NCBI RefSeq assembly: GCF_947072515.1 | Contig: NZ_CAMTIG010000009.1 | Span: forward strand, 1-64,000 | Length of the DNA: 64,000 bases | Direction: 5' to 3' | Origin: an uncultured Clostridium sp. | GTDB lineage: Bacteria > Bacillota > Clostridia > Clostridiales > Clostridiaceae | In this document: positions 2,148 through 61,111 of the stretch, one piece after another | How the letters are laid out: the number at the start of each line of letters is the position of its first letter | Numbering within the stretch: the stretch's first letter is position 1 | The notes under the pieces: generated by a model | Told to the model about the DNA's origin: nothing | What the model saw: only the letters and a program-made list of their open reading frames with translations | Databases searched by the model: none | Made by a program: the position numbers and the translations under genes

Positions 2148-2471
2148 ATGGAGTATGTAGCTTTACTTTTAGCACCAATTATATTAGTTATATTAGGAAT
2201 TATAATTGGCTCTGGAAAAGGTGGGTTTTTAATAGCTGGATACAATACATTAGATAAAAATGAACAAGATAAATATGATAAAGAGAGATATTTTAAATTT
2301 ATGGGTAAGTTTCTATTTGTTTTAGCAGGAATAGAACTTATAATGCCAATAGCTAAAGTATTGAATATAGGAAATTTTGGAGTAGTTATAATAAGTGTTA
2401 ATATTATATTTGTCATAGTTGTAATAGGTGGCATAATTTACATGAACACAAAAAATAGATTTAAAAAATAA
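2148..2471 (+). CDS. DUF3784-like small membrane protein
   Basis: A 107-residue protein with three hydrophobic segments (about residues 4-24, 51-70 and 76-98). A conserved GKGGFLIAGYNT segment and a following KYDKERY stretch lie between the first two. This pattern matches the DUF3784 family of Firmicutes, whose function is unknown. The start has GGGGGAG upstream. It follows cynS by 58 bases and may be read from the same promoter. No catalytic motif is visible. Confidence 0.75.
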   Translation: MEYVALLLAPIILVILGIIIGSGKGGFLIAGYNTLDKNEQDKYDKERYFKFMGKFLFVLAGIELIMPIAKVLNIGNFGVVIISVNIIFVIVVIGGIIYMNTKNRFKK

Positions 2472-2505
2472 AAAAATATTTTAAGGAAATAATAAATTTA
2501 AAATA

Positions 2506-2551
2506 AAAGTGAATAGAACTAATCAGAATGGGTACAATTAAAATATAAATC
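2506..2551 (+). promoter_or_regulatory. Conserved upstream block of small RNA unit 1
   Basis: AAAGTGAATA and, further on, the exact 16-mer AATTAAAATATAAATC (2536-2551) occur here and again upstream of unit 2 at the same relative position. TATAAA within the 16-mer is a possible -10 element; no good -35 is seen. It is probably the promoter/activator region, duplicated with the RNA. Confidence 0.4.
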
Positions 2552-2645
2552 AATTGATTTATATCTATCCCCCATAAATTCACTTATTGGATACCCCCTA
2601 TTTTCAATAAGATAAAGAAAGTCTTAGAAATAAGGCTTTTTTTGT
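2552..2645 (+). ncRNA. Candidate small RNA unit 1 with C-rich loops
   Basis: There is no coding potential here. Elements in order: the inverted repeat AAATC-AATT-GATTT (2547-2560), a single-stranded CCCCC (2569-2573), a hairpin CTTATTG/CAATAAG (2583-2589 with 2605-2611) whose 15-base loop holds CCCCC (2594-2598), and a terminator AAAGTCTTA/TAAGGCTTT plus T-run (2618-2643). The same order recurs about 182 bases downstream with a different but still paired stem, which argues for a conserved RNA structure. The 5' end is estimated. C-rich loops of this kind can pair with Shine-Dalgarno sequences; that function is inferred. Confidence 0.55.
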
Positions 2646-2687
2646 ATGTAAAAATATTTCTTTATAAAAAATAAAAAAATAAATTCT

Positions 2688-2733
2688 AAAGTGAATATAA
2701 TCTTTAGATGTGGATAGAATTAAAATATAAATC
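2688..2733 (+). promoter_or_regulatory. Conserved upstream block of small RNA unit 2
   Basis: AAAGTGAATA (2688-2697) and the exact 16-mer AATTAAAATATAAATC (2718-2733) repeat the block in front of unit 1, offset by 182 bases. Confidence 0.4.
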
Positions 2734-2829
2734 GTTAGATTTAATAAAATTCGTCCCCCATTAACCCTTTCATTAGATCCCCCCTAGGTTTAATGACACA
2801 AAAAAGTCTTAGCAATAAGGCTTTTTTTA
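2734..2829 (+). ncRNA. Candidate small RNA unit 2 with C-rich loops
   Basis: It has the same architecture as unit 1: AAATC-GTTA-GATTT at the 5' side, CCCCC (2755-2759), a hairpin TCATTA/TAATGA (2770-2775 with 2791-2796) whose 15-base loop contains CCCCCC (2779-2784), and a terminator AAAGTCTTA/TAAGGCTTT (2804-2822) with a T-run. The stem bases differ from unit 1 on both sides, so pairing is kept (compensatory change). The exact 5' end is not known. Confidence 0.55.
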
Positions 2830-3028
2830 TTTGGAAGAAAAATATTTTAAATGAAAAGTTGGTGGTAAAGTAGACTAAGGGAAGGGTAGAAAAAAATAAT
2901 TTAGTGAAATAAACTGCTAATTTAAAAATAAAGAAAATAATAGATAAATAAAATTACGATATTGATGATGATAAAAAGATAAGATATTATAGGTGAGGCA
3001 ATTTAAATAAGATTAGGGGAAGATACAA

Positions 3029-3715
3029 ATGAAGAGTAAAAAGCAGCATAAAATGAGAAAAAGAACTAAGATTTTAATAGGTATAGTAATTATATTTATA
3101 ATATACTTACTTAGTTTAGCTGGTAGGGGAACAACAAATACAAATAATTCAGCAGTAACTACGAAAAATCAAACACAGACAGTTCAACAAACACAAAATA
3201 ATACACAGCAAACACAAGAAAATCCACAGAAGCAGAATATAAATAATTCAGAAGTGGATAAAAAAGATGCTACTGAAGTTAAGAAAGTAGATACACATAA
3301 AAAGGTAGAGAGTAATAGTGGAGTAGATACAAAACAAGAAAATATAAAAAAGGAAACTGTATCAGAACCACAAAATGCAGTAGTGAAGAGTACTGAAAAT
3401 AAAACAAATACAGTAAATCAAAATAATGATAGAAAGCAGTCAAATATAAAACAAAATGAAAAAAGCCAAAGTATGGCTGTAAAAGCACCACAAAATAAAG
3501 AAGCAAATGAAGTACAAGGACAGTATGAAGAAATTTCTTTTAATAGTTCAAGTAAAAAAGCTATTTTACATTCAACACCAGATAGTCATGGTAATGATAT
3601 AGAACATTTAAATAATGGAGAGAAGGTTCAAGTTATAGGACAATCAGGTGAATACGATAAAGTAAAAACATCTTCGGGAGAAGTTGGGTATGTCTATGAA
3701 AGATATGTAAAATAA
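3029..3715 (+). CDS. Membrane-anchored extracellular SH3-domain protein
   Basis: A 228-residue protein with a basic N-terminus and one transmembrane helix (about residues 13-32). A long Gln/Asn/Lys/Thr-rich low-complexity linker follows (about 35-165). A C-terminal bacterial SH3 domain (about 168-228) carries the LHSTPDSHGN, VQVIGQSGEYDKVKT and GEVGYVYERYV features. Such domains bind peptidoglycan or wall peptides. It is probably anchored in the membrane and reaches into the cell wall. The start is preceded by AGGGGAAG. It is monocistronic with its own terminator. Confidence 0.8.
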   Translation: MKSKKQHKMRKRTKILIGIVIIFIIYLLSLAGRGTTNTNNSAVTTKNQTQTVQQTQNNTQQTQENPQKQNINNSEVDKKDATEVKKVDTHKKVESNSGVDTKQENIKKETVSEPQNAVVKSTENKTNTVNQNNDRKQSNIKQNEKSQSMAVKAPQNKEANEVQGQYEEISFNSSSKKAILHSTPDSHGNDIEHLNNGEKVQVIGQSGEYDKVKTSSGEVGYVYERYVK

Positions 3716-59874: not shown

Positions 59875-59899
59875 AAAAACAAGTAAAACAGAATATTAA

Positions 59900-60021
59900 C
59901 TTATCAAGAGCGGTGGAGGGACTGGCCCTATGAAACCCAGCAACCTGTAATTTTAAATATACAATAGCTATATCTAAATTATGTGGTGCTAATTCCTGCA
60001 ACTATTTAGTTGGGAGATGAG
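59900..60021 (+). ncRNA. SAM-I (S-box) riboswitch
   Basis: S-box landmarks occur in order: CTTATCAAGAG, GGTGGAGGGACTGGCCC, TGAAACCCAGCAACC, then GGTGCTAATTCCTGCAA and GGGAGATGAG, whose end pairs with the 5' CTTATC to close P1. A terminator hairpin follows at 60045. Binding of S-adenosylmethionine should stabilise P1 and favour termination, so the metN and metIQ genes are expressed when SAM is low. Confidence 0.96.
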
Positions 60022-60044
60022 AAAAGAATATGGGTATATTATTT

Positions 60045-60148: not shown

Positions 60149-61111
60149 ATGATAAAAATAGAAAATGTGTATAAAAAATTTGGGGAGACAAGTGTTTTAA
60201 ATAATGTTTCATTAGAAATAAAAGAAGGAGAAATATATGGGATAATAGGGCATAGTGGAGCAGGAAAAAGTACTCTTCTAAGATGTATTAATGGACTTGA
60301 AGGATATAATGAAGGTTCAATAAATGTTATGGGCGATGAAATAGGTAAATTAAAGGATAAGCAAATAAGAGACTTAAGAAGAAACTTAGGAATGATTTTT
60401 CAAAATTTTAATCTTTTAGATAGAAAAACTGTTTTTGAAAATATAGCATTACCTTTAGAAGTATGGAAATATGATAAGAAGCATATAGAAAATAAAGTGA
60501 TAGAACTTTTAAAATTAGTTGGATTAGAAGATAAAAAGGATAGAAAACCAAAAGAATTATCAGGAGGGCAAAAACAAAGAGTTGCTATAGCTAGAGCATT
60601 AGCATTAGAGCCAAAGGTATTGCTTTGTGATGAAGCAACATCAGCGTTAGATCCAAAAACAACAAAAGATATATTAGAACTTCTATTAGAAATAAATAAC
60701 AGATTAAATATAACTATTGTAATAGTGACTCACCAAATGGAAGTAGTTAAAGAGGTATGTGAAAAAATAACTTTATTAGATGGTGGAAGGGTTAAAGCAC
60801 AGGGATTAGCAAAAGAATTGTTTTTAAAGCCAGAAAATCATTTGAAAAAATTTCTAGGGGAGGGTGATGAAGAAATATTACCTTCAGAAGGAATAAATAT
60901 AAGAATATTTTTCCCAAGTGATTTTTCGGAAAATGCAATAATAACAAAACTTGCGAGAGAGTTAGATATAGATTTTTCAATTGTATTTGGAAAATTAGAG
61001 AAGTTTAGAGGAGATATATTAGGTAGTTTAGTTATAAATATAGAAGAAAAAGATAAAGACAAAATACTAGGGTATTTAAATGAGAAAAATGTGAAGTGGG
61101 AGGTAATATAA
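60149..61111 (+). CDS. metN: Methionine ABC transporter ATP-binding protein
   Basis: A 320-residue ATPase: Walker A GHSGAGKSTL, Q-loop MIFQNFNLLDRKTV, signature LSGGQKQRVAIARAL, Walker B VLLCDEATSALD and H-loop VTHQMEVV. The C-terminal NIL domain (about 245-320, RIFFPSDFSENAII...) is the methionine-binding regulatory module of MetN that inhibits transport at high methionine. GGGGGTG precedes the ATG. Directly downstream of the SAM riboswitch. Confidence 0.96.
   Translation: MIKIENVYKKFGETSVLNNVSLEIKEGEIYGIIGHSGAGKSTLLRCINGLEGYNEGSINVMGDEIGKLKDKQIRDLRRNLGMIFQNFNLLDRKTVFENIALPLEVWKYDKKHIENKVIELLKLVGLEDKKDRKPKELSGGQKQRVAIARALALEPKVLLCDEATSALDPKTTKDILELLLEINNRLNITIVIVTHQMEVVKEVCEKITLLDGGRVKAQGLAKELFLKPENHLKKFLGEGDEEILPSEGINIRIFFPSDFSENAIITKLARELDIDFSIVFGKLEKFRGDILGSLVINIEEKDKDKILGYLNEKNVKWEVI

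Follow-up and report, generated by a model that had tools for sequence, protein, structure and literature searches.

Candidate C-rich small RNA genes with forespore-type promoter-like boxes in a Clostridium genome

CsfG of Bacillus and relatives is a small RNA under the control of forespore sigma factors, and the Rfam ylbH entry presumably corresponds to it. It is described as an RNA of 136 nt encoded between ylbG and ylbH, whose loops and interhelical segments contain conserved CU-rich stretches (PMC3574147). By the title of Marchais 2011, as cited in PMC3574147 and PMC12456014, it is sporulation-specific and highly conserved in endospore formers. Few small RNAs have been described as acting inside the developing spore. 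It is stated in PMC9147052 that before the case presented there no small RNA of late sporulation had been experimentally confirmed, and in C. difficile other small RNAs are reported to act on the initiation of sporulation (PMC10267692).

Small RNAs with C-rich or CU-rich binding sites are found in several other bacteria. LhrC of Listeria monocytogenes exists in five copies with redundant CU-rich sites, the third of which lies in the terminator, and has been connected with the LisRK system and with stress on the cell envelope (PMC4132741). The same report gives the UCCC motif as typical of small RNAs that bind Shine-Dalgarno (SD) sequences in low-GC bacteria. RsaE/RoxS and FsrA, from low-GC Gram-positives, bind SD sequences with a UCCC or C-rich seed (PMC4132741, PMC9410917), and IsrR of staphylococci, which is Fur-regulated, carries C-rich regions in apical loops and beside a stem and has SD targets (PMC9410917). 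C-rich, SD-binding small RNAs in several copies are already known as a kind; the feature that sets the present locus apart is its forespore-type promoter-like sequence. As far as the literature was searched, no such C-rich design is reported for Clostridium, and the family presented here is not described.

The window, i.e., the whole stretch of 64,000 nt that was analysed, comprises positions 1-64000 of contig C9 in a genome of 3.9 Mb and 130 contigs. Units 1 and 2 are located in the gap 2472-3028, downstream of a cyanase-DUF3784 gene pair (1625-2089 and 2148-2471) and upstream of an SH3-domain (SH3_3) gene (3029-3715). In the ORF list, no frame of at least 50 aa overlaps this gap, in agreement with a preliminary description of the locus, which had held that no frame there encodes protein. 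That description had reported two tandem units with common elements, all of which are present in both: the 16-mer AATTAAAATATAAATC (2536-2551 and 2718-2733), AAATC-N4-GATTT, TCCCCCAT, a C-loop hairpin, and AAAGTCTTAGnAATAAGGCTTTTTTT. The spacing of 182 nt given for the units is correct at the promoter-like block but not at the terminator, where it is 185 nt. The 16-mer is indeed shared, but it is less an upstream element in its own right than the downstream end of a promoter-like block with sigma-F/G-type boxes. The mean column identity of the two units is 86% in a MAFFT alignment.

Both units have the same predicted design. A hairpin at the 5' end is followed by an unpaired UCCCCCAU and by a second hairpin whose loop is C-rich; the last element is a terminator-like hairpin, capped by a GNRA loop and followed by seven T. 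In unit 1 (+ strand), the putative small RNA of ~99 nt (2545-2643) would start ~7 nt past the -10 box and end in the T-run. Its parts are the 5' hairpin ATATAAATC-AATT-GATTTATAT (2543-2564), the first 2 nt of which may precede the transcription start, the interhelical single-stranded CCCCC (2569-2573), the C-loop hairpin (2583-2611, with CCCCC at 2594-2598 in the loop), and the terminator-like hairpin with a GAAA loop and T7 (2612-2645). In unit 2 (+ strand), the putative RNA is ~103 nt long (2727-2829, the T-run ending at 2828), with the 5' hairpin TAAATC-GTTA-GATTTA (2728-2743), single-stranded CCCCC (2755-2759), the C-loop hairpin (2770-2796, with CCCCCC at 2779-2784), and the terminator-like hairpin with a GCAA loop and T7 (2800-2829). 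All hairpins are taken from the predicted folds, the C-loop hairpins also from a comparison of pairs, and the single-stranded runs from the folds and C-run counts. Note that no site in 2300-3100 passes a consensus terminator scan, since its rule requires three G-C pairs and the 8-bp cores of these stems, followed by T7, have two.

The folding energy is -27.6 kcal/mol for unit 1 (z -6.0) and -22.0 kcal/mol for unit 2 (z -4.9), and for neither is any of 200 dinucleotide shuffles as good. With the terminator removed, z is -3.9 and -3.6, respectively, again with none of 200 shuffles as good. The C-loop hairpin proposed earlier exists, but its stems are predicted at 9 and 10 bp and its loops at 11 and 7 nt, not at 6-7 bp and 15 bases as first given; eight pairs are common to both units. 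It had also been proposed that pairing is conserved while sequence is not. Among the 21 shared pairs, two are compensatory (U-A/C-G and G-C/A-U, both within the C-loop hairpin) and 19 are invariant, and slid pairings give 29-59% paired cells versus 100% in the true register. The proposal holds for these two pairs, but 117 of 500 shuffles reach the compensatory count, and with two sequences only the covariation cannot reach significance. The compensatory pairs are thus suggestive only: they agree with conserved pairing and are no proof of a selected structure.

Upstream of units 1 and 2, two conserved blocks, AAAGTGAATA and TGGnTAnAATTAAAATATAAATC, are separated by 13 diverged nt (3 of 13 letters alike), so that both units read GTGAATA-N13-TGGNNANAATTAAAATATAA. 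In unit 1, the -35 box GTGAATA, identical in units 1-3 while the spacer differs, is at 2509-2515 (GAATA at 2511-2515). The -10 box GGGTACAAT, of the sigma-F/G type GGNNANAAT, is at 2530-2538, N14 from GAATA as in the candidate spoIIR promoter. In unit 2, alignment and pattern matching place GTGAATA at 2691-2697 and the -10 box GGATAGAAT at 2712-2720. Conserved boxes around a diverged spacer are the pattern expected of a promoter after duplication, and the shared block is a promoter candidate whose boxes resemble those of forespore sigma-F/G promoters. By motif comparison they fit the B. subtilis consensus sequences as given in PMC3416734 (sigma-F, GTATA / GGNAANAMTR; sigma-G, GNATA / CAWAMTA). 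For sigma-F, a spacing of 15 nt is reported as commoner, with 14 nt for sigG (PMC5942855). In C. difficile, sigma-F -10 elements are reported to have a conserved upstream G (PMC3789822), and the recognition of sigma-F and sigma-G is described as overlapping (PMC7438776).

The genome encodes sigF, spoIIAB, SASP and SpoVA genes. Genome-wide, the loose pattern GNATA-N14-GGNNANAAT has 34 matches versus 21 for a reversed control. Of 30 loci examined, 17 lie within ORFs of at least 90 codons and 13 outside; the latter include units 1 and 2, a site on contig C10, and a site 26 nt upstream of the start codon of spoIIR (identified by PF09551 and TIGR02837). Upstream of one SASP gene (L049) there is a similar site, GAATA-N15-GGGAATAAT. 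For another SASP gene (L048) the nearest 300 nt contain no match, the one present being ~340 nt upstream, and none was found upstream of spoVAC, which lies directly 3' of spoIIAB-sigF and may be served by the sigF operon promoter. spoIIR has the site, and two of these three other forespore loci do not have it nearby. Forespore control, assigned by motif and with sigma-F fitting better than sigma-G, is plausible, and we lean towards it. As a separate observation, a hairpin CACTTCCTTAG...CTAAGGAAGTG in the spoVAC start region (L174, ~1374-1408) would cover the SD site of that gene.

A family of such units had been suggested, and a third unit with the same promoter block does exist on the minus strand of contig C10 (from ~86,974 down to 86,855; L068). 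It was found through its promoter, GTGAATA-N13-TGGAAAGAATTAAAATATAA, and not through a covariance model. In the genome, GTGAATA-N13-TGGNNANAATTAAAATATAA is matched exactly at three places, with none further at up to three mismatches. Among the rows inspected, nucleotide BLAST gives one meaningful match, C10:86968-87031, recognised as unit 3. At the corresponding place, unit 3 has the hairpin AATTTGAAT-CCCC-ATTCAGATT, followed by a long terminator-like hairpin; the 5' hairpin and the interhelical C5 are absent. For the whole unit z is -6.75; without the terminator the fold is marginal (z -1.55), with 15 of 200 shuffles doing as well. Its flanks are an alpha/beta hydrolase-like gene (26.6 bits at a Pfam cut-off of 27), which is followed by an inverted repeat read by eye as a possible terminator, and a CitMHS-type transporter gene. 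No Rfam family reaches the gathering threshold at this locus.

Counted as overlapping starts, CCCCC occurs six times on the + strand of the window. Five of these starts (four of the five runs) are inside units 1 and 2, and the sixth is the complement of the SD sequence of a minus-strand gene. In 20,000 mononucleotide shuffles of 2542-2829, the number of CCCCC starts always stays below five. GGGGG has 12 starts on the + strand. On both strands of the window together there are 16 runs of at least five G, four of which are complements of the C-runs of the units. The other 12 include nine that lie 4-13 nt upstream of an ORF (one of the nine within a larger gene). In an additional 105 kb of the same genome, made up of loci that came from other searches and hence not a random sample, SD positions account for 10 of 40 G-runs. 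Over the total of ~169 kb, 19 of 52 G-runs (the four complements left out) lie 4-13 nt before an ORF start, versus 893 of 20,000 random positions; GGGGG is thus enriched at SD sites, yet not confined there.

Among 149 start regions, 51 are predicted to pair with the C-segments of the units at <= -11 kcal/mol, versus 19 of 148 intragenic stretches; beyond the window, these too come from the loci that are not a random sample. In this comparison no target stands out. spoIIR is ranked 23 of 149 (-14.5 kcal/mol, AGGGGGU against the unit 1 loop ACCCCCU), and since many SD sequences would pair, the pairing is generic and supports no single target. The anatomy agrees well with the earlier proposal of C-rich-loop small RNA candidates able to bind SD sites, and SD-directed repression is a fairly probable function by design. 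Covering of the SD is also how known C-rich small RNAs repress, among them LhrC with its redundant CU-rich sites (PMC4132741) and IsrR with its C-rich loops (PMC9410917).

A covariance search, proposed earlier as a test, gave no convincing further copy in 68 genomes of the genus, including the present one. In its own genome, the model R2 (built from units 1 and 2) finds these two units plus two matches with E 0.23 and 2.7, and with filters off it does not recover unit 3. In the 68 genomes, with stricter Infernal filters, six other genomes have matches at E <= 0.1 (best 0.017). All eight non-unit sequences were rejected, as they share little beyond the terminator-like hairpin or are coding-looking DNA. 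Apart from unit 3, BLAST against the own genome, 58 other genomes (35 of the genus) and plasmids gave, among the rows inspected, matches that were short and AT-rich or resembled terminators.

The strict promoter pattern has 32 matches in 24 of the 67 other genomes of the genus, all with 2-3 mismatches (reversed control, 15). Of these matches, 29 were examined as loci: none has a CCCC run in the following 150 nt, and in 14 an ORF preceded by an SD-like site begins a short way downstream (one of them inside a larger ORF). A pattern extended to the C-run, TGAATA-N13..16-GGNNANANT-N15..45-CCCC, is matched 35 times in 25 of the 68 genomes, with 33 of the matches outside the own genome and 20 for the reversed control. 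Twenty of 29 non-own loci lie in an open frame of at least 100 codons on one strand. The remaining nine, two of which are the same place, were read individually. A block in a cinA-CPBP gap of two genomes (L090/L104) was considered as a relative and set aside: it has no evident sequence relation to the units, and a 5' leader on the opposite strand would account for it equally well. A block between genes named by eye as endolysin-like and ParM-like (L093) was likewise set aside, having no evident sequence relation to the units. A pattern scan of a wider genome collection gave eight stretches, none of them Clostridium by title and all in frames of at least 113 codons. Scans of viral contigs gave one match that overlaps what seems to be the start of a gene, and three coding stretches identical to one another; all were judged to be chance. 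No clear copy was found in the 67 other genomes of the genus by covariance model or promoter pattern, and the searches gave no ortholog in other species. With three exact promoter matches here and no convincing covariance-model copy among 68 genomes, the family appears to be lineage-restricted among the genomes examined.

Some other elements were seen in these loci. The cinA-CPBP-like block (L090/L104, ~position 1501) contains GAAGCGA...TCGCCTCTCCCCCATTTTATTTATATA and may be an opposite-strand leader or another small RNA. In several genomes of the genus (L113, L117, L123, L125, L127, L128, L130, and L131), recurrent GAATATTTGTTCG-like sites are followed by TTGGCAATAATTATAATATAA; the arrangement looks like an SOS-type operator promoter. 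On the minus strand of L003 (~1725 of the reverse complement), a palindrome TACCCCCTACCTAGGGGGG, presumably akin to copper-sensor operators, is found just before a gene that by eye encodes a CsoR/FrmR-family-like sensor.

Among known small RNAs, CsfG is by analogy the closest functional relative of the units. Both are small and intergenic in a spore former, and the CU-rich stretches described for CsfG (PMC3574147) are comparable to the C-runs. The units differ in that they are shorter, number three per genome, have other gene contexts, are lineage-restricted, and match no Rfam model. They are not members of the CsfG family, given the absence of an Rfam match and the neighbours DUF3784 and SH3_3 in place of ylbG and ylbH; in 2300-3100, the ylbH entry is absent from the five Rfam matches up to E 5. 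The units share with LhrC the presence of more than one copy per genome (three promoter-matched units), and with LhrC, RsaE, IsrR and FsrA the C-rich motifs, which are predicted to be unpaired in all three units. The regulators and the sequences of RsaE/RoxS and FsrA are other than those of the units. As in LhrC, C-rich sites are placed in a stem-loop and in a single-stranded region; the account of LhrC in PMC4132741 differs in its five copies, its terminator CU-rich site and the lack of a sporulation sigma factor, the sequence comparison being through Rfam only. IsrR is similar in its C-rich loops, its stem-adjacent C-rich region and its AT-rich genome, and differs in being Fur-regulated and conserved in staphylococci (PMC9410917). 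With RsaE/RoxS and FsrA, the likeness is in the C-rich seed (PMC4132741, PMC9410917), while the units have no Rfam match to them.

The anatomy, the conserved promoter-like boxes and terminator-like hairpins, the three copies, and the likeness of the boxes to those before spoIIR can be read from the DNA itself. In the reading proposed here, units 1-3 would be separately promoted and terminated genes of trans-acting small RNAs, with unit 3 more diverged. A forespore-type sigma factor (sigma-F, possibly also sigma-G) would transcribe each unit to an RNA of ~100-120 nt. The RNA would present unpaired C-runs, i.e., the interhelical UCCCCCAU and the C-rich apical loop in units 1 and 2 and the CCCC loop in unit 3. 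By pairing with G-rich SD sequences (GGGGG, AGGGGA, GGAGGG), these would keep ribosomes from loading onto several mRNAs while the spore forms, in the manner of LhrC, RsaE, IsrR and CsfG. We infer transcription, compartment, pairing and repression from sequence. That the units are real small RNA genes is very probable; small RNA genes, forespore control and SD-directed repression together are given a probability of about 0.5, a joint figure that takes the three parts as not independent.

The same small RNA genes might instead depend on the housekeeping sigma factor, or on some activator of the GTGAATA block, with the forespore likeness being coincidental. This is conceivable though rather unlikely: TACAAT (unit 1) and TAGAAT (unit 2) are fair sigma-A -10 hexamers, and neither the modest enrichment of the loose pattern nor its absence near two of the three other forespore loci speaks for sigma-F. 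However, there is no TTGACA-like -35 box, a scan of 2300-3100 for the sigma-70 consensus has no entry at unit 1 or unit 2, and all three units and spoIIR retain the GG of the -10 region. Another reading dispenses with separate promoters: the 3'-UTR of the cyanase-DUF3784 genes would have been duplicated, or their terminators would stand in tandem, with unit 1 ending the upstream mRNA and unit 2 being a copy. The units indeed follow the DUF3784 gene on its own strand, and no other terminator is seen by eye in 2471-2509. Such an origin is nevertheless improbable: the promoter boxes are conserved across a diverged spacer, termination needs no second full unit with its own C-runs, and unit 3 has the same promoter block in an unrelated gap, after a possible terminator repeat.

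The position of unit 2, whose 3' end is ~200 nt upstream of the SH3-domain gene on the same strand, would together with the tandem layout suit a cis-acting leader (riboswitch or attenuator) of that gene at 3029. It is very improbable that the units act in this way, as the best sub-threshold Rfam match in 2300-3100 has 27.7 bits against a cut-off of 55, no alternative antiterminator pairing is kept in both units (by eye), and unit 3 precedes a different gene, that of the CitMHS-type transporter. Moreover, a single homolog of the SH3 gene reaches E <= 1e-10 in the rest of the genus (G089), and the flanks and upstream gap of that homolog, read by eye, contain no unit. Finally, the units might be non-functional duplicated intergenic DNA, in which the structures are terminators plus chance. 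The lack of clear copies in the 67 other genomes and the non-significant covariation would agree with this. Its probability is low, since the folds of units 1 and 2 beat shuffles outside the terminator too, the boxes, C-runs and hairpin position are conserved while the intervening sequence differs, and five of the six + strand CCCCC starts of the window fall in the units.

If the small RNAs are expressed as predicted, they would offer a direct test of post-transcriptional repression shaping compartment-specific expression, and would point to repeated origins of the C-rich SD-binding design in AT-rich Gram-positives. A bolder conjecture, which we consider unlikely, is that lineage-born, forespore-only small RNAs that evolved independently of CsfG use their C-runs to silence a whole class of mRNAs with G-rich SD sequences after asymmetric division, possibly including spoIIR. 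If this were true, sigma-F would, through the pairing with spoIIR, exert a negative feedback at the post-transcriptional level on the signal for mother-cell activation.

Elsewhere in the window, the only Rfam match at gathering score is an ordinary SAM riboswitch (59898-60023, + strand, 81 bits) upstream of ABC transporter genes at 60149 and 61112. At the other end (1-959, + strand), tandem near-identical repeats encode GSKDTSINPEVPNGYHLVKVVDGQG...TWIVEKNE units of a surface protein, which is truncated at the window start and has an LPxTG-like end, NPKTGD.
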